From Leishmania infantum JPCM5 (Eukaryota; Euglenozoa; Kinetoplastea; Trypanosomatida; Trypanosomatidae): DNA of 64,000 nt. The notes under the pieces were generated by a model. That model ran no database searches. It was not told the DNA's origin and was given only the letters and a program-made list of their open reading frames with translations. Both the position numbers and the translations under genes were made by a program. The stretch spans positions 2,146,951-2,210,950 of the forward strand of contig NC_009420.2 of the NCBI RefSeq assembly GCF_000002875.2, written 5' to 3'. Of this stretch, positions 2,545-13,008 are shown piece by piece (position 1 is the first letter of the stretch; every line of letters starts with the position of its first letter).

Positions 2545-3360
2545 TTAGAAGGATTCACTTGGCTTCGTACAGAGCTTGTGGCCTCCCTTGCCGTCCGGAA
2601 CGATGCGCGTGACGAACTGCTCCGGAATGGCACGCTCAACAATGTCCTCGTCCTTCTCCGAGGGGAAGAGAACGTTGACGGTGGAGCTGCACGCCGTGAC
2701 GATCTCGGTGTTGCGCGCCTCATCTTTGTCCAGCAAGTATACGTTCACACTCGTCGAGCGCTCAATGTCGATGGTTGGCGCCGCCTGCGCCACTTGCACG
2801 TCGACGTCAGCGCAGCTGAGCACCTCGAGCGAGGACACGATGACCTGCAGAGCCACCTGCACCTTGGTGCAGTTGACGATACTCACGGAATTAACCTTGT
2901 TGGTGATCGTGATGTAGGCGTGATGGCAATTCTCGATACGAACGGCGTGGCGCATCTCTGCCTTGTCGAGCTCCAACTGCAGCTGCTCCGCTGGACTGCC
3001 GGCTTGGTACTTGACGACCCACCGCTTGTCCCCCTCTAACGTCAGCACCGGCGGCTGCGCCGCCTCCTCTCCGGTGGTGCGCTCGGTTTGCTGCTGTGCG
3101 CGACGACGTTCCTCGGCGGCTGCTTTTTTGTGCTCCAGCTCACTCATGTCGACTTCACCATGCCGAACGTTCTGTTTGTACATCTTTTGGTCATCCGTCA
3201 CGTGACGCAGACGCGCGGTGATGTTGTCACCGCCTTGGCAGATCTCTGCAAAGACGGCGGCGGCAGCACCGCCAACGCTGGCGCTGGGCCCTCCGGCGTT
3301 GGCCGGCGGCGGCGGCGGTGGAGGCGGAGGCGGTGGAGGCGGTGGCGGTGGGACCGGCAT
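2545..3360 (-). CDS. Short cyclase-associated protein (CAP/Srv2), C-terminal CARP domain
   Basis: The product is 271 aa. It opens with a run of about 17 prolines (residues 4-20), then a short linker, a charged segment with EEVDMSELEHKK-like spacing, and from about residue 100 to the end a CAP C-terminal beta-helix (CARP) domain. Recognisable stretches are PPVLTLEGDKRWVVKYQ, RIENCHHAYITITNKVNSVSIVNC and the ending EQFVTRIVPDGKGGHKL. In CAP proteins this domain binds ADP-actin and promotes nucleotide exchange. The usual N-terminal adenylyl-cyclase-binding and helical-folded domains (about 300 aa in fungi and animals) are absent, so only the polyproline and actin-recycling half is encoded. The ATG at 3360 directly precedes the polyproline run. 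Purine-rich plus-strand sequence at about 3455-3500 gives a pyrimidine tract for trans-splicing upstream. Confidence 0.85.
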   Translation of the reverse strand: MPVPPPPPPPPPPPPPPPPANAGGPSASVGGAAAAVFAEICQGGDNITARLRHVTDDQKMYKQNVRHGEVDMSELEHKKAAAEERRRAQQQTERTTGEEAAQPPVLTLEGDKRWVVKYQAGSPAEQLQLELDKAEMRHAVRIENCHHAYITITNKVNSVSIVNCTKVQVALQVIVSSLEVLSCADVDVQVAQAAPTIDIERSTSVNVYLLDKDEARNTEIVTACSSTVNVLFPSEKDEDIVERAIPEQFVTRIVPDGKGGHKLCTKPSESF

Positions 3361-4441: not shown

Positions 4442-6070
4442 CTACATTCCCGATGCGAGAGGAACGATACTGCGCGTCTTCAGTGCCGCTTCTATGGCGG
4501 TGCTGCCGGACACAAGGCCAGCGCCTTCAAGCTCTACAGTGTAGAGCTGGCTGTGTGACTTGTCGTCGTCCACGCGCCTCTCCGCAGCCTCGCTGATGAT
4601 GTCCGCCTCATCAGCGGGCACGCTGTCCTCCTCCTCGTCTTCCTCTTTCGCTGCTTCAGCGCTCGACGTCCTATACTGCCGCTGCCGCCTCTCTGCATCA
4701 AGAAACAGCTCTCGCGGCGCGTCCTTGACGATGGAAAGGGTGTACAACTCTACCGTGAGCGGGTCCATCACACCGGTATCCGCGCCCTTGACGGGGGTGG
4801 TGCGCACCGACTGCTTCGCCGCAAAACGTACCCGCGCCGCCGCTGCCATAGCAGTGCTGAGGAGCCGATAGCGCAATGGCGCCTTGCTGCGAACGTCTGC
4901 GTTCGTGAAGTCATTCAGAAGGGTCGGAGAGGGTGACCCCGAGGCAGCGCTGCATCTCTGCCGGGCACTTGAAAAAGCGTTTTGCGGCAGAGGTCAGCAG
5001 CCGCAGCCGAAACGCCGCAGAGTCCTTGAAGTGTGTGTCGAGGAACAGCTCCAACGGGCACGAGGCGCCTATAGTGTACTGGTGCAAGTCGTCCCACAGT
5101 CAGAGGAGCGCCGGCCGCCTTTTATCGTCGGCGAGCGGTGCCTCCTTGTAGCACTGGACGATGGTCAGTAACAGAGGGCGGCCAGCGTCAAGATGCAAGT
5201 GCTTCCGTGGCGCGTCCGTGAGCACCGTGAGCGTGGCATCAAGATGCAAAGGCGTGACTGCAGGGCATCACGACGCCGGCCTTGTGGGGCTCGAGGTGCT
5301 CACCCAGCAGGTTAATCATTTCAAACATCCCCTTCTCGCTAGTGTGTGTGTGGGGGGGGGGAAGAAGAGGTGTACTCGATCCACGGGTGGTGCACCTGAA
5401 TCTGCTCCCACTCGTTCGTGAGTCGCCGCCGGCCCAACAAATGGTACGGCAGCGCGCTGTTCACCATGAATCGAAGATGCTGGTTTGCACCGAGGCTCCT
5501 GCGTCGCCCCACTCTGGTGCACCGCAAGCAGCAACTCAAGTGCCTTGCAGCTCACTTGCACGCCGGGGTCGGACGGAAAGCGCAGGGCGTACTCGAAGCA
5601 CTTGTGTTCCTAGGAGTCACGGGGGGAGCGATTGAATCTGTGAAAGAGACAGCGCACGGCTGCCTTGCGCACACACAGGCCGCGTAGCCCGCCCTAGCCT
5701 TTTCGGGAAGCGGCAAAGGCTACTCGAGTACGCTGCCCACGCGCATCGCCCACAAGGCGCGGGGCGCCGACCCACGCATCATCGGACTCTGACCACTGCA
5801 CTCTTTCACAAGTACGTTGATGGCCAGCACCGCCAGGCTCTCTTTTTGCTTCAACGTTGTGGTGAGGCAGAGGTGAACCATAGTTTTGTCCTCGAGATCA
5901 TTTCTGCAGCAGGAGATGATTGCTTCCGCGAACAGCACGGCGGTGTCCATGCTGCCCGCCATGAGTGCTGTCACCTTCCTCAGCGCCATCTGCTTTGAGT
6001 TGTTGTCGCCGGTCTGCATTGACTCGCGCCAGCATGCTCTGATCTCCTCCATATGCCCCCTTCCCCTCAT
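4442..6070 (-). pseudogene. AP4B (pseudogene): Beta-adaptin pseudogene, AP-4 beta type
   Basis: Adaptin-like pieces lie in order on the minus strand but in different frames. The first (5720-6070) starts with ATG and carries a classic beta-adaptin N-terminus, including LAVLAINVLVKEC and a following MRGSAPRAL segment, then stops at 5720-5722. Next comes a YVRK-like helix around 5650-5690, broken by a TG slip, and a stop at 5610-5612. The middle pieces are ALPYHLLGRRRLTNEWEQ (about 5400-5470) and GMFEMINLLGEHLEPHKAG (about 5270-5330), with a frame change at the GT/G run near 5345-5360. A segment with RLRLLTSAAKRFFKCPAEM (about 4940-5050) has a stop upstream at 5100-5102 and another at its end. 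The last open piece (4442-4876) begins with LRYRLLSTAM, the end of the trunk, and runs into an acidic hinge. The middle segments resemble AP-4 beta more than AP-1/2 beta. The total is shorter than an intact trunk, so deletions are likely as well. Confidence 0.8.
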
Positions 6071-6744
6071 CTACACTGTGCGGTGGGGTGGAACGGACTA
6101 ACGGTTGTGGCGTTCATCACGACACGTGGACCTTTTTGTGTTTAGCTTGCGGTGATGGTGCACCCCTGCCTACTTGGGAGTGGGGGGGGAGAAGTAGGCG
6201 TGTCTCACGGAGAGGCGCCTGGTGAGCGTCGTTGCAGCTATACAAACGCGTGTCCGAGTTCCAGTGATGATGTCGGCGCCGCGGCGGGGGTTGGCCCTCA
6301 AATAATTCCGTGGAGGAGAAAAGTAGAAGGGGAGTTCCTGCTTGTGTAGGTCTGCGTGTGGGTGATGAAGGTCGCTTAATGAGTCACCACTGGGGAGGCG
6401 ATAGGTCCTCGAGAAGACGTAGCCGCCACCGCCACCGCCACCACACCTGAGAGCTCTGCGACCATGCTCCCGGCTCGGCAAAATCCAACGATGGATGGGC
6501 GGCGGGGTGGCGGCGACAGTGTGGCACCGACGCCGTCCTCTTCCCCTTATCCAGTTACTTTTGCCTGTTCCCCGCCGCCGCCGTTTAAACGCGGCGGTGC
6601 AGACGTGCGTGTGCATGTCTGCACGCACCTCTGCGACGCGGCGTTTACGTTATGCGACGTTTTCGACACCGGCGCGAAACAAAAAAATAGCCGAATCGGA
6701 AAGGTGCGGCGGAGTGCCGTGCACCACCCCGTGCGCAGCGCCTC
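6071..6744 (-). other. Intergenic upstream of adaptin pseudogene
   Basis: No gene seen. It includes a possible degenerate retroposon segment near 6590-6660, listed separately, and GC-rich simple sequence at 6420-6450. Confidence 0.5.
6590..6660. repeat. Possible degenerate retroposon (SIDER-like) fragment
   Basis: The plus-strand segment with ctctgcgacgcggcgttta resembles, on the opposite strand, the sequence flanking the repeat copy near 19225-19260 (a TGATGCGGCCTTTAAA-type motif preceded by CTGCAG). Both lie in spacers. The similarity is short and judged by eye only; class assignment is a guess. Confidence 0.25.
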
Positions 6745-8442
6745 TCAATCTGCACTGTTTGCTTTGATCAGGTCAGCCGTCACATGATCGTAGTAGGCGA
6801 CACGATCGGACGGCACGGCGTTGTCCTCGCCGCCGTCCACGAACACCCCTCTGCCCGACAGCGTCGTGCTCCATGCAAAAACATCGGAGAGAAGGATCTG
6901 TGGAAGTTCCATGCATTCGGTGAGCTTCGCTGCACGCAAGAGCTGATGTGACACGGCGAAGACAAACTCTTGTGCCTCTCGTGCAAGGTCCTCGCAACCG
7001 GCAGGCGAGTGCCTCCCGCGGCTCTCGTGCACCGCTGTCGTCAGCTCCGCCACTGCCGTGACGGCGATCAGGTCGGATAGAAATGCCACAACGTCTGCGC
7101 GGCGGTGCACTGTAGTCGCCGTCGCGGTCAGCGCTTCAAGAAGCAAAAAGAGGGGGCACTCCAGCCCAAGGGCGAGGGAGCTGAGCTCCTCATCCGCCGC
7201 AATCATGGCAGCCACGCCACCAGTGTCGGCATCGGCCGCTGTCGCGTCAACGCGTCCCTCTCCGGACGCCGGGGTCCGTGACCGCGCAGCGAACGCCTTC
7301 TTCAACGATCTTGCGCGCCTGTGAAAACGACTTGTTGTGGTGGAGGTGCTATACAGAGAAGCACGCAGCGCCTTTGTTACAGCCATTGTCGATGGCTGCT
7401 GCTGGTGCCCAAAGCGATGAAGCGCGACGAGCAGCTGCAGTAAATCCGCCACAGAGTAGAGGCGCAGCTGTGAGTAGAGGAGGCCACGCCTGCCGCGTGC
7501 GCCATCGTGCACGGCGCAACTCGTCACCACATCGAGGACGGCTTCCTCGACGATACCGAGCGAGGACATTGTGTAGAGCATCGCAGGAAGGGGAAGCGGT
7601 GATGCGCTAGGCGCCCGCGATATCCCCTTCACCCCCTTATTCGCCGCTTCCAGATCGTGATCGCCTACAGTGGTACCCGCCACAGAGGGAGTGGAGCTGC
7701 CGTCTCGCGCGGCAGCCGCATCGGCCGCAGTCTCTGCCAAGGCAAACAGCTGCCGACGAATTTCGTTCATCACCTGCACCAGCAGCTGTCCATCTTCCAC
7801 GTTGGCGCTGTCGTACAGTCGCAGAAACAAAACTAAATCAGAGAGGGCAAAGTCGGCCGCTGCCGTCATCCGCGGGCCACGAGGAGGCACGACAGGGCTG
7901 CCGCTCACCACCGGCACAACGCGGAAGCGCTGACGCGACGCAGGGTTAGCAGAGTCGCCACCACTCGTCTTCGCAGGGGGAGGAAGAAGGCCACGGAGAG
8001 GCCCTAGCACATCGCGCCTGGCACTAAACTCGGCAAACCCTTTCGCGGCAGCAGGGGACAGGGAGGATTGCGAGTAGCCGACGGTGGTGAGCTCATGAAG
8101 CAGCTCCTGTGCGCGTTGCACCAACGGGTTGCTGGTGTGCAAGATATCCGGCGGAGGCGAGTGGAGACCGCTGATCCGGGGCTGATTTAGGTTCTGCCCT
8201 ACGGAGGGGCTTGACGGTGCGTCCTCAGCTGGCGATTTTCTGGCAGGCTTCGGTGGCGGTGGGGCGCGCGTCGGTAAGGCGCACACTGTCACGGTCTCTC
8301 CTCCCTTCGCCGCCCCAGTCAAGCAGTGAGGAGGTGCAGCATCGAGGGCTCGCACGCGTCGCTTGCCAAGGTACCGCCCGGCACTGGCTTGCCCACGGAA
8401 GTACCTTGGTGTCCACAAACGGTAAGGCGTGCGTGCTAGCAT
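6745..8442 (-). CDS. Hypothetical helical protein, probably mitochondrial
   Basis: The product is 565 aa from the ATG at 8442. I chose this start because a run of twelve Ts on the coding strand (plus 8474-8485) is followed by the first AG at 8462-8463, 20 bases upstream of that ATG; the open frame upstream would lie in the intergenic region. The N-terminus MLARTPYRLWTPRYFRG is basic and lacks acidic residues, consistent with mitochondrial import. The rest is mostly helical, with segments such as YSVADLLQLLVALHRFGHQ that resemble the repeats of FAST-kinase/RAP-type organellar RNA-binding proteins, but no RAP or catalytic domain is visible. Ala/Ser/Pro-rich linkers interrupt it. An RNA-related mitochondrial role is inference; the family is not identified. 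Confidence 0.7.
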   Translation of the reverse strand: MLARTPYRLWTPRYFRGQASAGRYLGKRRVRALDAAPPHCLTGAAKGGETVTVCALPTRAPPPPKPARKSPAEDAPSSPSVGQNLNQPRISGLHSPPPDILHTSNPLVQRAQELLHELTTVGYSQSSLSPAAAKGFAEFSARRDVLGPLRGLLPPPAKTSGGDSANPASRQRFRVVPVVSGSPVVPPRGPRMTAAADFALSDLVLFLRLYDSANVEDGQLLVQVMNEIRRQLFALAETAADAAAARDGSSTPSVAGTTVGDHDLEAANKGVKGISRAPSASPLPLPAMLYTMSSLGIVEEAVLDVVTSCAVHDGARGRRGLLYSQLRLYSVADLLQLLVALHRFGHQQQPSTMAVTKALRASLYSTSTTTSRFHRRARSLKKAFAARSRTPASGEGRVDATAADADTGGVAAMIAADEELSSLALGLECPLFLLLEALTATATTVHRRADVVAFLSDLIAVTAVAELTTAVHESRGRHSPAGCEDLAREAQEFVFAVSHQLLRAAKLTECMELPQILLSDVFAWSTTLSGRGVFVDGGEDNAVPSDRVAYYDHVTADLIKANSAD

Positions 8443-9129
8443 ATGAATGCGTAGATGTGTGCTGCCCCTTCTCAAAAAAAAAAAATCGGTCCCGCTATTG
8501 CTGGACCAGGGGAGGGGAGAGGAGCGAGAGACGAGCGCAGAGAGGGCGATGAGGGTTTGTGGCATAGTGGATGCGTCAAAAAGATATGAGCGAGGACAGG
8601 GAGGTTTCGCTTTCAGGTGGCGCACCCGCACTCGCAAAGCAGCCGGCGCGCGTCTGCCACCCACACATGGAAACGTACGACAGCGTTTGCGCGTGACGCA
8701 GAGGGGCGGGCGAAAGGGAGGAGGAGGACCACGGCATGCGGTACGTCGATGCTGTTTTACGCGCTTGGCGTCCATGGCTCACCGAGCGCACCCGCGCATA
8801 GGAACGCGCTCAAACAGAGCAAGAGAAGGCACAGCGAAGGGGTAGTGGTGGAGGTGAGGACATCGGCAGACGACGGACTCACGGCAAAACGTTGACGCTA
8901 CTCTCCAGCTCCAACGCCCTTCCGCATCGCATCCGGCATTGGTATAATGCAGCCTACATTAATAAAGTGGCAGCTTAACCGAAAGGGGTGCCGAGGACAC
9001 ACACAAACACGAACACTGACAAAAAAAAACGAAAGAGGAAAAGAAAAACGACAAGAGCCACGACAGCATCATCCACTCTGACAAGGTCGCCACGAAACAC
9101 CCGCCCACGCAGTCCGGGGCGGCGGTTTT
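8443..9129 (-). other. Intergenic between NERD-domain gene and mitochondrial-type gene
   Basis: It contains the acceptor at 8462-8485 and A-rich sequence at about 9018-9050 in the 3' UTR of the upstream NERD gene. No further gene seen. Confidence 0.6.
8462..8485 (-). promoter_or_regulatory. Spliced-leader acceptor (polypyrimidine tract plus AG)
   Basis: On the coding strand twelve consecutive Ts are followed by GAGAAGGGGCAG. The AG at 8462-8463 precedes the ATG at 8442 by 20 bases. It decides the start of the downstream gene. Confidence 0.6.
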
Positions 9130-10449
9130 TTACTCTAGCTGCTTCTCACTCTCGTACAAGTGACGGCTCAGCGAAATGTGATCGACATCGCACAGGAGCA
9201 CCGTCTCCAGCTTTCCTGTGCCCGCCATCTTCATCACCAGGTATCCGTTCTCCTTGTTCTTTTTCGGCTTCATAGGGAAGACGATGTTGCCCTCGGCGTT
9301 GCGCGGCTTCTTCTCCTTGCCCTTCTTCGCCAGCCGCTTCGCCGTTGTCAGGACGAGTTCAACGCTGCCAACGCTGTTGGTGAGCAGCGTCTTTACGAGA
9401 CCGACTGCGCCGCGGTTCCACCGCACGTTAACGCCGAGGAGGTGCTTGCGGTTGTACATGCAAAACGCACTAGGAACATCAATCTTCTCAAGGTCACCTG
9501 TGATGAGGCGGTGGTCGAGCAGGTACACTAAATCCCACGTACGCAGCACGTCCACGACGCCAGCTACGTTGCTTCGCTGCTCTTCGGTGAGGAAGACAGC
9601 GGCAGAGGCGGACGTGGGTGTTGAAGGGCGAGAGACCCGCATGAACGGCAGCCAGGATGACCACCACGACGCCGCTGCGACGTCGTTCAGTGCCTCCAGA
9701 TCTATGTTACCGCGGATAGCATGCGAGGCAAAGACGCCGAACGTGTCGAGGGTGAAAACGTACTTCTTAGCCTTGACTGTCGAGGGGTCCAGCTTGACAC
9801 GCGGATGCGTGAACACGACGACGGGAACGACACACTTGCCGCACACCTTGTGGATGGACTTGTCGGAGTACCATGTGGCGCGCTTGCCGTTGGCGCCCGT
9901 GTCTCGACCGAACAGAACCGCATCCGACTGCACGAGATGCGAGTCTGGCAGCTCTACACGACGCGCGTTTTCAATGTAGCGGCGCAGTGCGGCAGCCTTC
10001 TCCACGTTATCTTCCTGCACATCCTCAAACTCCAGCGTGTCCATCCGTTTGCGATTGCGGCACTGGTACCAACGCGGACCGTTGCTCCACACAAAGCCTT
10101 GCCAGTTCTTCACCTCGACGACGAGGATGATAGGGCCGACCGCGACGACGTCGATTTCGCGGTTGTGCCCGACACGCGCGACAGCCACACGTCGCCGCAG
10201 AAAAACATCTGTCCACCCCGCCTTGCGCAGTACCGCCTCCACCTTTTCTTCGGCCTGCATGGACCGCAGGAAGTTCTGCTGTTCGTGCGTCAACAAATCC
10301 TCGCGGCGAAGTTGCGATCGAGCCTGTGCACGCAACGTTTCGCGATAGACATTACGGCTGAGGCCAAAGGCTACCGCGCAGAGCAGCACCGTTGTCATGC
10401 CTAGGAGGATGTAGACTGTGTCGTCCAGCAGAGAAAGCACGGCGTTCAT
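9130..10449 (-). CDS. Membrane-anchored NERD-domain protein (nuclease-related fold)
   Basis: The product is 439 aa from the ATG at 10449, which is the first ATG after an eleven-base T-run on the coding strand (plus about 10672-10683). Residues about 8-28 (VYILLGMTTVLLCAVAFG) form one transmembrane segment. A NERD domain covers about 55-175: AEEKVEAVLRKAGW, then NREIDVVAVGP at about 95 and VVEVKNWQGF at about 112. The Asp of REID and the E-x-K of EVKNW are the expected PD-(D/E)XK-like active-site positions and are all present. NERD domains are found in bacterial and some eukaryotic DNA-processing or stress proteins; the substrate is unknown. The C-terminal 200 residues are not recognised. Its location, probably with the catalytic-like domain facing the cytosol from an internal membrane, is inference. 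Confidence 0.8.
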   Translation of the reverse strand: MNAVLSLLDDTVYILLGMTTVLLCAVAFGLSRNVYRETLRAQARSQLRREDLLTHEQQNFLRSMQAEEKVEAVLRKAGWTDVFLRRRVAVARVGHNREIDVVAVGPIILVVEVKNWQGFVWSNGPRWYQCRNRKRMDTLEFEDVQEDNVEKAAALRRYIENARRVELPDSHLVQSDAVLFGRDTGANGKRATWYSDKSIHKVCGKCVVPVVVFTHPRVKLDPSTVKAKKYVFTLDTFGVFASHAIRGNIDLEALNDVAAASWWSSWLPFMRVSRPSTPTSASAAVFLTEEQRSNVAGVVDVLRTWDLVYLLDHRLITGDLEKIDVPSAFCMYNRKHLLGVNVRWNRGAVGLVKTLLTNSVGSVELVLTTAKRLAKKGKEKKPRNAEGNIVFPMKPKKNKENGYLVMKMAGTGKLETVLLCDVDHISLSRHLYESEKQLE

Positions 10450-13008
10450 GACGTGTGCGCCTGCGCCCGAGGGCAGAGAGGATTCAGCAACGCAGGCACA
10501 CGGCGGCAGGAAGAGGTGCCGATAAGCTGCGACGAAGCACCAGCACAAGCGCGTCGCCAGCGGTGCTCCGTACTTTGACGGCGTGCGACGAAAGAAAAGG
10601 TGGATGTCAGCAGAGGGAAGGCGACAGGTGGGAGAGAAGATGAGAATAGCAGCGAAGAAGAAATGGGTGATTAAAAAAAAAAACATCTTCTGTGAAGAGC
10701 TTACGTCACGAACTACGACAAGGCAAATGGGCCACCGGTCTCGGCAGATCCGCATCCTTGCATTGCGTAGAGTGTGTCGCAAACAAGCCTTGCGGCAAAG
10801 CCCCCATTTACCCTCTTAAGTCATAACGGCACCACTAAAAAGACGCACCTCTTTTTGTGTGTGTGTGTGTGTGTTCCCCTCTGGAAACACCGTCGTCCGC
10901 GCTTCACACGCGTTGGCGCCGAGACGCGTTGTTGTCGCCAGCCTGCATTCCCTTGATTGTCGCTTTTTTTCCCACAGCGCGCACTCGGTGACCTCTTCTT
11001 TTGATCGCCTGATTCTCACAGGGGCGAAGGGGAAAAGCATGCGACACTATTATGCTCTCGTCCGTGCGTTCACCTCCCCGCTCCCCCCTTCCCAACTACG
11101 CACACCAACCTGCAAATATATATATATATATAATAATAAGCACTTGAGGTGTGGAGGAGGAGGAGGAGAGGAGAGGAGAGAACAGAGAGAGAGGATCACG
11201 ATAATTATCACCAAACGCCATGCATACAACACAAGAGACCACCACCACTACCTCCGGGCCAACAACAAACATCCTACACATTCCATTCCACCTTGAATAT
11301 CTTTTTTTTTGCGTGCGACATTTCCACTTTAGGCTATCAGCGAGCGCGCCACACCGCTCATTACGTTCTGCAAGCCGCACAAGGACCGAAAGGGATGAGA
11401 AGCACCACTGCAACGGCGAGGACGTGCCCTTGCACCGCTATCCTCGACGACTGCAGCGGCTCCTCCTCATGAGCGTTCGACAACGACCCAGCGTCCACAG
11501 AAAGACGCACACAACAACAAACAAGCAGCACGACGACAACGGCACAACGATCGTGTCATCAGAGGCAATCCGAGGAGGAGGATTAGGGAGCGGGGAGGTG
11601 GGGGGGGGGGGACGGAGAGGGGACACCAGAAAAAAACCCGAAAAGTTTGTTTCTTCCTCTTCGTGAGTTCGAGTGATCAGGAGGCGCATGTAAGCGAGTG
11701 TAACCTTCTAGCAGACCTCTAACGATAAAGATGGAGTGAAGATGAGTGGGCGACTTATCCATTAGATGGCAACATAGAAAACCGAAAGAAACAAAAAACA
11801 TTATGAAAAAGGCGACAGGGCGAAGATACGCAGACGTACTGGTTCCTCACCACATGGTCATGAGCGCGCGCACAGACACAATCGATCTCCAGCGGGGGAC
11901 ACGTTGCCCCCTCAGCGCACCACAGAGTGGTAGTGGTCATGTTTTGATGTGTGCTACAGTACTCGTTACTTTAACCGATGCACGTGCTACGGAGGTAACG
12001 GCACACTGCGTTTCCTTACCATGTTAACACTGAAACGGAAAGGAAAAGCGGCAAAGAAGAGAATCATAGTAAAAGCGAATCGGACAACGACGACGTTCAC
12101 GCGTGCCCGCCTGCACTGCGCCGTGACTTGGCCGCAGTTGATTTTATGGACGCTCCCTTTTCTACATGTATTGGAGCGGATCAGAGGTCTGACTGGTGGC
12201 GATGGCTGGCGATTCGCTTCACAATATGTGCCGATTTCTTTCTCGTTCTTTCTCCCTTTTTCGCCATCTGGTTCTCCACAGGGAACAGAAAAAAAAGAAG
12301 ACGAGGTCACTCTGAGCACAGACACACACACGCGCACGCACGCACGCACGCAAAGAACACAAACACTACAAAAAAAAAGGAAACGAGAAACAAAAATATA
12401 AGAACTCGAGCTGACCGCGTTAGAAATGCACAACACCTACGGACAGAGGCGAGGGAACGGAGCGTGTTTGTGAGTCTGTCTCTGTGTGCGTGTGCGTGTG
12501 TGTGTGTCTGTGTGGCGTGCGCGCACGCTTGAGAGTTTGTCAGAGCTTAGGTGGAGCACAGAGAGAAAACAACAACAAAAGAAAAGGCTTTTTAAAAAGA
12601 AGACGAGAGACGGCGGAGTGAATAGGGAAAAATCACCGAGTCTCTGCTTCCGAGTTAGTTAACCACAGAGGTGGGCCACATCCACACCAGCAACACAAAC
12701 ACGAAAACGACAAGATATGATCATAATTGTAAGACGTAAAGGGTCATACGAGCAAACAACAAAGACAGAATGTGCGTTTGTGGGGTGTGAGGGAGGGTGG
12801 GTAGGTGAGTGAGTGGGGCAGTAGAAGACTCATGCAGGAAATGGTTGGCGTGACAGCAGCTACCGGACATGGCGAGGTCGTCTCTATGCTCAACGAAGAG
12901 ACGAACCTCCTCTTGGATGTGGGTGCGTGTCGGGGGGGGGGCTCGGTATCCACTTTGGCGGCCAATGCTGCAGGGCCTGCATCCCACCCACCCTCTTCAT
13001 ACGGCACT
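10450..13008 (-). other. Long intergenic region, mostly 3' UTR of IleRS
   Basis: About 2.5 kb. It contains the T-run and acceptor for the NERD gene near 10672-10683, a GT run at 10856-10875, a TA run at about 11116-11132, G-rich tracts near 11600, a CA/CG run at 12321-12352 and a GT run near 12490-12515. No coding signal stands out on either strand; the open frames present are built from simple sequence. Confidence 0.6.

Follow-up and report, generated by a model that had tools for sequence, protein, structure and literature searches.

Remains of a beta-adaptin gene, probably of AP-4, and of two partner subunits in the genome of Leishmania infantum

As a rule, the loss of an adaptor protein (AP) complex is concluded from its absence, an appearance that an incomplete genome can also give, and the question raised by the locus described here is whether such a loss can also be read from what the lost genes left behind. 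The stretch of DNA analysed, 64,000 nucleotides of the Leishmania infantum JPCM5 genome (C36:2146951-2210950; hereinafter, the window), contains, at positions 4442-6070 of the minus strand, a degraded beta-adaptin gene that had originally been predicted, from the nucleotide sequence alone, to be a decayed AP-4 beta gene. Having searched the whole genome (32.07 Mb in 75 contigs), we consider it very probable that the locus is a unitary pseudogene, that is, what used to be the AP-4 beta gene of a parasite from which the whole AP-4 complex has been lost. The loss of AP-4 in Leishmania is already known; what is added here is the relics, namely, recognisable remains of three of the four AP-4 subunits on three chromosomes, which make up a positive record of the loss, each part of it checkable for lesions shared across Leishmania.

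Is the locus an adaptin gene at all? The N-terminal fragment (6070-5723) matches the Adaptin_N family (PF01602) with 49.5 bits and an E value of 3e-13, the cut-off being 37. As the reference for the shuffle, tblastn and frameshift-aware comparisons, we used the genome's own beta1/2 gene (L001), and each fragment was singly compared with it against 300 shuffles. In three cases, none of the 300 shuffles scored as well: the N-terminal fragment (reference residues 31-139), the LLTSAAKRFF fragment at 5099-4914 (residues 480-514), and the fragment at 4912-4445 that comprises RYRLLST and the acidic hinge (residues 530-619). These three secure fragments, which represent the N-terminal part, the late trunk, and the trunk end with the hinge, are collinear and lie in two frames, with stops between them. 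The tblastn comparison likewise yielded three collinear pieces, with 31.6% identity over reference residues 45-139, 21.8% over 418-514 and 28.3% over 523-619. When frame changes were allowed for, the N-terminal part scored 141, the maximum among 60 shuffles being 49, and the region 5722-4401 scored 196, with 60 shuffles averaging 106 and reaching 137 at most. Thus, the beta relic as a whole exceeds chance, and the original prediction of a decayed beta-adaptin is borne out.

The gene is also broken, in part as predicted. All three stops are present on the minus strand (TAG at 5722-5720, TAG at 5612-5610 and TGA at 5102-5100). The proposed deletion of part of the trunk agrees with the alignment as well: between the N-terminal piece and the first C-terminal piece, 278 reference residues (140-417) face approximately 157 codons, so that about 120 trunk residues appear to be missing, which of them being left unplaced. 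The three fragments that are secure singly support two frame changes, from frame 2 to frame 1 and back to frame 2; a count of five would require the middle fragments to be genuine.

Which adaptin was it? The relic is of the beta type rather than gamma, alpha, delta or epsilon: the beta1/2 reference is well ahead of the other paralogs (the region 5722-4401 scores 127-143 with four of these, near the 137 maximum of the shuffles for the beta1/2 reference, the only gene with shuffles in this comparison), and 22 of the 25 matches of the N-terminal fragment in PDB at E values up to 1 are named as beta subunits of AP complexes. Eight intact, full-length large subunits of adaptor or coatomer complexes are encoded in the genome (Table 1), and, by best match, the large subunits of AP-1 to AP-3 are intact. 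Judged in the same way, none of the eight full-length large subunits in the whole genome is an AP-4 beta or epsilon. All other beta classes are intact elsewhere, beta1/2 twice, beta3 and beta-COP once each, and the N-terminal piece of the relic is only 23-32% identical to the beta1/2 paralogs. Because the other betas are accounted for, the identity to beta1/2 is low, and relics of AP-4 mu and sigma coexist in the genome, the assignment of the relic to AP-4 beta is supported, as a candidate reached by elimination. No second intact AP-4 beta gene was found in this genome that would make the locus a simple duplicate.

The fate of the partner subunits carries much of this argument. A search for the medium-subunit family returned four stop-free genes and one short match, below the cut-off, on C31. 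At this location (L013; C31:1411878-1413226, minus strand), we identified a full-length mu relic with eight stops, the pieces of which lie in three frames. It is matched by P0004, a single 454-residue protein from Novymonas esmeraldas in which both mu domains are recognisable and which, by its PDB scores (AP-4 mu, 208 bits; mu1, 162; mu2, 125; mu3, 60.5), is AP-4 mu. P0004 aligns with the C31 relic over residues 1-43, 40-259, 253-348 and 334-452, four collinear pieces of which the best is 59% identical over 217 residues, compared with 24-28% identity between P0004 and the genome's own intact mu genes. The relic itself is closest to AP-4 mu among the mu subunits (62.4 bits in PDB versus 59.3 for mu1). 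Thus, over residues 1-452 of the Novymonas protein the two correspond, but P0004 looks intact and the Leishmania copy carries eight stops.

For the small subunits, the family search at E values up to 10 gave a ninth match, on C32, with an E value of 0.0055. The sequence there (L033:1498-1933; C32 near 34000, minus strand) has three stops and one frame change: an N-terminal part that contains the three stops adjoins a C-terminal part in another frame, and the two cover positions 40-95 and 99-129 of PF01217 with E values of 0.001 and 0.0018, each under the family cut-off. On these matches, membership in the sigma family is secure. The relic is likely to be of the AP-4 class, given that the sole PDB match of its N-terminal part at E values up to 1 is AP-4 sigma, albeit at 21.9 bits and an E value of 0.002.

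Several observations weigh against the interpretation of the locus as the dead gene of a dead complex. To begin with the other expected remains, an epsilon relic was not found in the genome with the Adaptin_N profile at E values up to 10 or with the genome's own gamma and alpha. The 12 matches to the profile were the eight large subunits, the relic in the window, a C20 protein, and two weak matches, one on C26 and one on C15, each within a long open frame. The protein on C20 is above the Adaptin_N cut-off (44 bits) and was rejected as an adaptin, being an armadillo-repeat protein (Arm, 114 bits), and a weak alpha-like match (E 0.78) that lies on C11 and has one stop was taken as noise on reading. 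A search with PF14807 gave no epsilon match; this profile was silent in all controls, so it is uninformative. Nor was there a trace of tepsin, the ENTH search returning one strong gene and a weak match in a 499-codon open frame. Epsilon and tepsin are presumably gone or unrecognisable; of the other AP-4 subunits that the original prediction suggested looking for, remains of mu and, probably, of sigma came to light, but none of epsilon.

In the window itself, the same side of the scale holds the middle of the gene. The adaptin-like fragments that were originally quoted are all readable in the stated order, spread over three frames of the minus strand, although the region given as YVRK in fact reads CVRKAAV; singly, however, CVRKAAV, EWEQ and MFEMINLL are not beyond chance. 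Compared with the beta1/2 reference, 114 of 300 shuffles were as good as CVRKAAV near 5675, 190 as good as the stretch 5609-5484, 28 as good as HLL..EWEQ (5470-5372) and 235 as good as 5267-5103; for MFEMINLL (5328-5242), the count was 208, or 25 against beta3. The frameshift-aware path stays in a single frame across 5456-4926 and departs from the readings that give EWEQ and MFEMINLL, which it therefore does not confirm. In addition, the frame at 4993-4445 is open for 183 codons and the relic resembles intact genes in its GC content at third codon positions (GC3, 0.72-0.77), and therefore decay there is moderate. By eye, one of the proposed frame changes falls at a TG repeat and another at runs of C and CA, simple repeats of the kind that is error-prone in sequencing. 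As for the class, the PDB scores of the N-terminal fragment are close to one another for AP-1, AP-2 and AP-4 beta (46.2, 43.4 and 42.1 bits, respectively), so similarity alone cannot pick AP-4 beta over AP-1 or AP-2 beta, and the predicted identity draws on elimination and on the partner relics instead. Finally, two protein searches for an intact AP-4 beta of relatives returned only P0001, an L. donovani record, which we attribute to a limit of the search rather than to absence, because Leptomonas pyrrhocoris is reported to have AP-4.

These class scores bear most directly on the possibility that the relic is a decayed old duplicate of AP-1 or AP-2 beta. The score of AP-1 beta is slightly above that of AP-4 beta and the best match in the genome itself is a beta1/2 gene; however, with 22-32% identity to beta1/2 in the three matching pieces, such a duplicate would have to be old, relics of AP-4 mu and sigma coexist with it, and the remaining beta classes are all intact, so that we regard this origin as improbable. 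A new use of the 116-codon N-terminal open frame, or of a transcript of the locus, appears more improbable still. This open frame resembles intact genes in its GC3 (0.77), and upstream of it there is, as judged by eye, a pyrimidine tract with an AG, but the identity of the first 93 residues of P0001 to the window says little in a model that, as a whole, differs from it at about three of 333 residues.

A further alternative, sequencing or assembly errors that break an intact gene, fits the position of the two proposed frame changes at repeats and the annotation of P0001 as a protein in another assembly, of L. donovani. Against it stand the roughly 120 missing trunk residues, a model that is discontinuous in that other assembly as well, and the separate mu and sigma relics with eight and three stops, all of which makes this explanation highly unlikely. 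We give as little credence to an intron-bearing gene spliced to the predicted 333-residue protein: cis-introns are very rare in trypanosomatids, and, even though the model exists and its first gap starts with GT and ends with AG, its gaps bridge stops and frame changes, its recognisable match to the Adaptin_N profile is confined to the first quarter, and the corresponding models at the mu locus begin with sequence that is absent from Novymonas mu4, the start of which they are missing.

The database models deserve closer inspection in this connection. P0001, the only protein found for the region, is annotated as 'Adaptin N terminal region family protein'; it includes the stretch 5484-5609 as its residues 94-135 and the fragment 4442-4912 as its last piece, skips over stops and frame changes by its gaps, and has a recognisable Adaptin_N match limited to profile positions 19-115 of 524. 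At the mu locus, the L. donovani models P0002 and P0003 are without the start of mu4, and an N-terminal sequence absent from P0004 precedes the mu relic in them. The L. donovani beta and mu models are, accordingly, discontinuous too, and all three appear to be models built on pseudogenes, with the stops and frame changes skipped.

With an AP-4 beta pseudogene as the preferred reading, ordinary gene decay is a sufficient description of the process. Most likely, AP-4 became dispensable, and selection on the genes of its subunits was then gone; substitutions, insertions and deletions built up subsequently, and on balance some 120 trunk codons disappeared. The beta relic probably still occupies its ancestral place, and beta, mu and sigma would have decayed as parts of one complex. 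How long ago this took place can be gauged only roughly. In the aligned frames of the relics, there are 12 stops in 914 codons (one in 305 codons for beta, eight in 465 for mu and three in 144 for sigma), a count that leaves out the stops at 5722 and 5612, which are outside the aligned stretches. When eight intact genes were randomly mutated, the observed density was reached at approximately 0.2-0.3 substitutions per site since the constraint was lost; the gauge is noisy, with one run per setting, and the estimate leans low, stretches decayed beyond recognition being uncounted. This suggests that constraint has been absent for some time, not long enough to erase the genes. The loss had been described as possibly recent, and the legibility of the relics fits that description, but the amount of accumulated change tempers it.

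The relics also bear on the published history of adaptor loss, of which the locus had been predicted to be a fossil. Manna, Kelly and Field (2013) described AP-4 as missing from Leishmania and Phytomonas and proposed one loss at the base of the clade (PMC3650584); tepsin is likewise missing in Leishmania (PMC4977521). The L. infantum genome fits this account in that AP-4 is absent, and differs from it in that the remains of three subunits are legible here and mu4 is present in Novymonas, which points to a later loss in Leishmania. Novymonas is described as the closest relative of Leishmania (PMC8406214) or of the two-host Leishmaniinae (PMC8472099), and its intact-looking mu4 would therefore place the Leishmania loss after the split from Novymonas and make the Phytomonas loss separate. 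The genome of L. pyrrhocoris is reported to have kept AP-1 to AP-4 (PMC4810370), so a loss after the Leptomonas split was already implied. The main text of that paper does not contain the word pseudogene, nor does that of the genome paper on Novymonas (PMC8406214) contain the words adaptor, adaptin or AP-4. Among the papers listed by searches of an open-licence library, subscription journals and supplements being outside these searches, we found no published description of AP-4 relics.

It is possible, and we suggest it tentatively, that AP-4 was lost between a one-host ancestor shared with Novymonas and the two-host Leishmaniinae (Leishmania, perhaps together with Endotrypanum and Porcisia), near the move into vertebrates, and that the fossils could serve to order and date this loss subunit by subunit. 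The evolutionary interest is moderate. With the relics, it can be tested whether there was a single loss of AP-4 or more than one, which of the subunits was the first to break, and whether the loss coincided with the change to two hosts. They also flag database gene models that are built on pseudogenes.

Table 1. Parts of the beta-adaptin locus (positions in the window) and intact adaptor or coatomer large subunits of the genome (contigs)
Feature	Location	Strand	Remarks
N-terminal beta-adaptin fragment, 116 open codons, secure	5723..6070	-	closed by TAG 5720-5722; PF01602
Possible trunk fragment EHKCFEYAL..., other frame, not secure	5484..5609	-	by eye; preceded by TAG 5610-5612
Possible trunk fragment HLL...NEWEQ, not secure	5372..5470	-	by eye; best placed at beta1/2 residues 217-227
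Possible trunk fragment MFEMINLL, beside C and CA runs, not secure	5242..5328	-	by eye; partly in P0001
Late trunk fragment LLTSAAKRFF, TGA at 5100-5102	4914..5267	-	only 4914-5099 secure
Trunk end (RYRLLST) and acidic hinge, secure	4442..4912	-	open up to terminal TAG 4442-4444
Pyrimidine-rich tract followed by AG, possible leftover trans-splice acceptor	6173..6198	-	by eye
Beta1/2 type	C36 and C11		best PDB match
Beta3	C36		best PDB match
Alpha	C7		best PDB match
Delta	C8		best PDB match
Gamma	C34		best PDB match
Gamma-COP	C28		Pfam only
Beta-COP	C20		Pfam only

Given the pyrimidine tract and AG upstream of the beta relic, the locus may still be trans-spliced. One neighbour of the relic is an open reading frame at 2545-3360 (minus strand) that encodes a CAP C-terminal domain (156.5 bits), and the other is a 676-codon open frame at 6745-8775, the two being suitable as anchors of synteny; farther along, the frame at 9130-10782 (minus strand) contains a nuclease-related NERD domain (45.5 bits).
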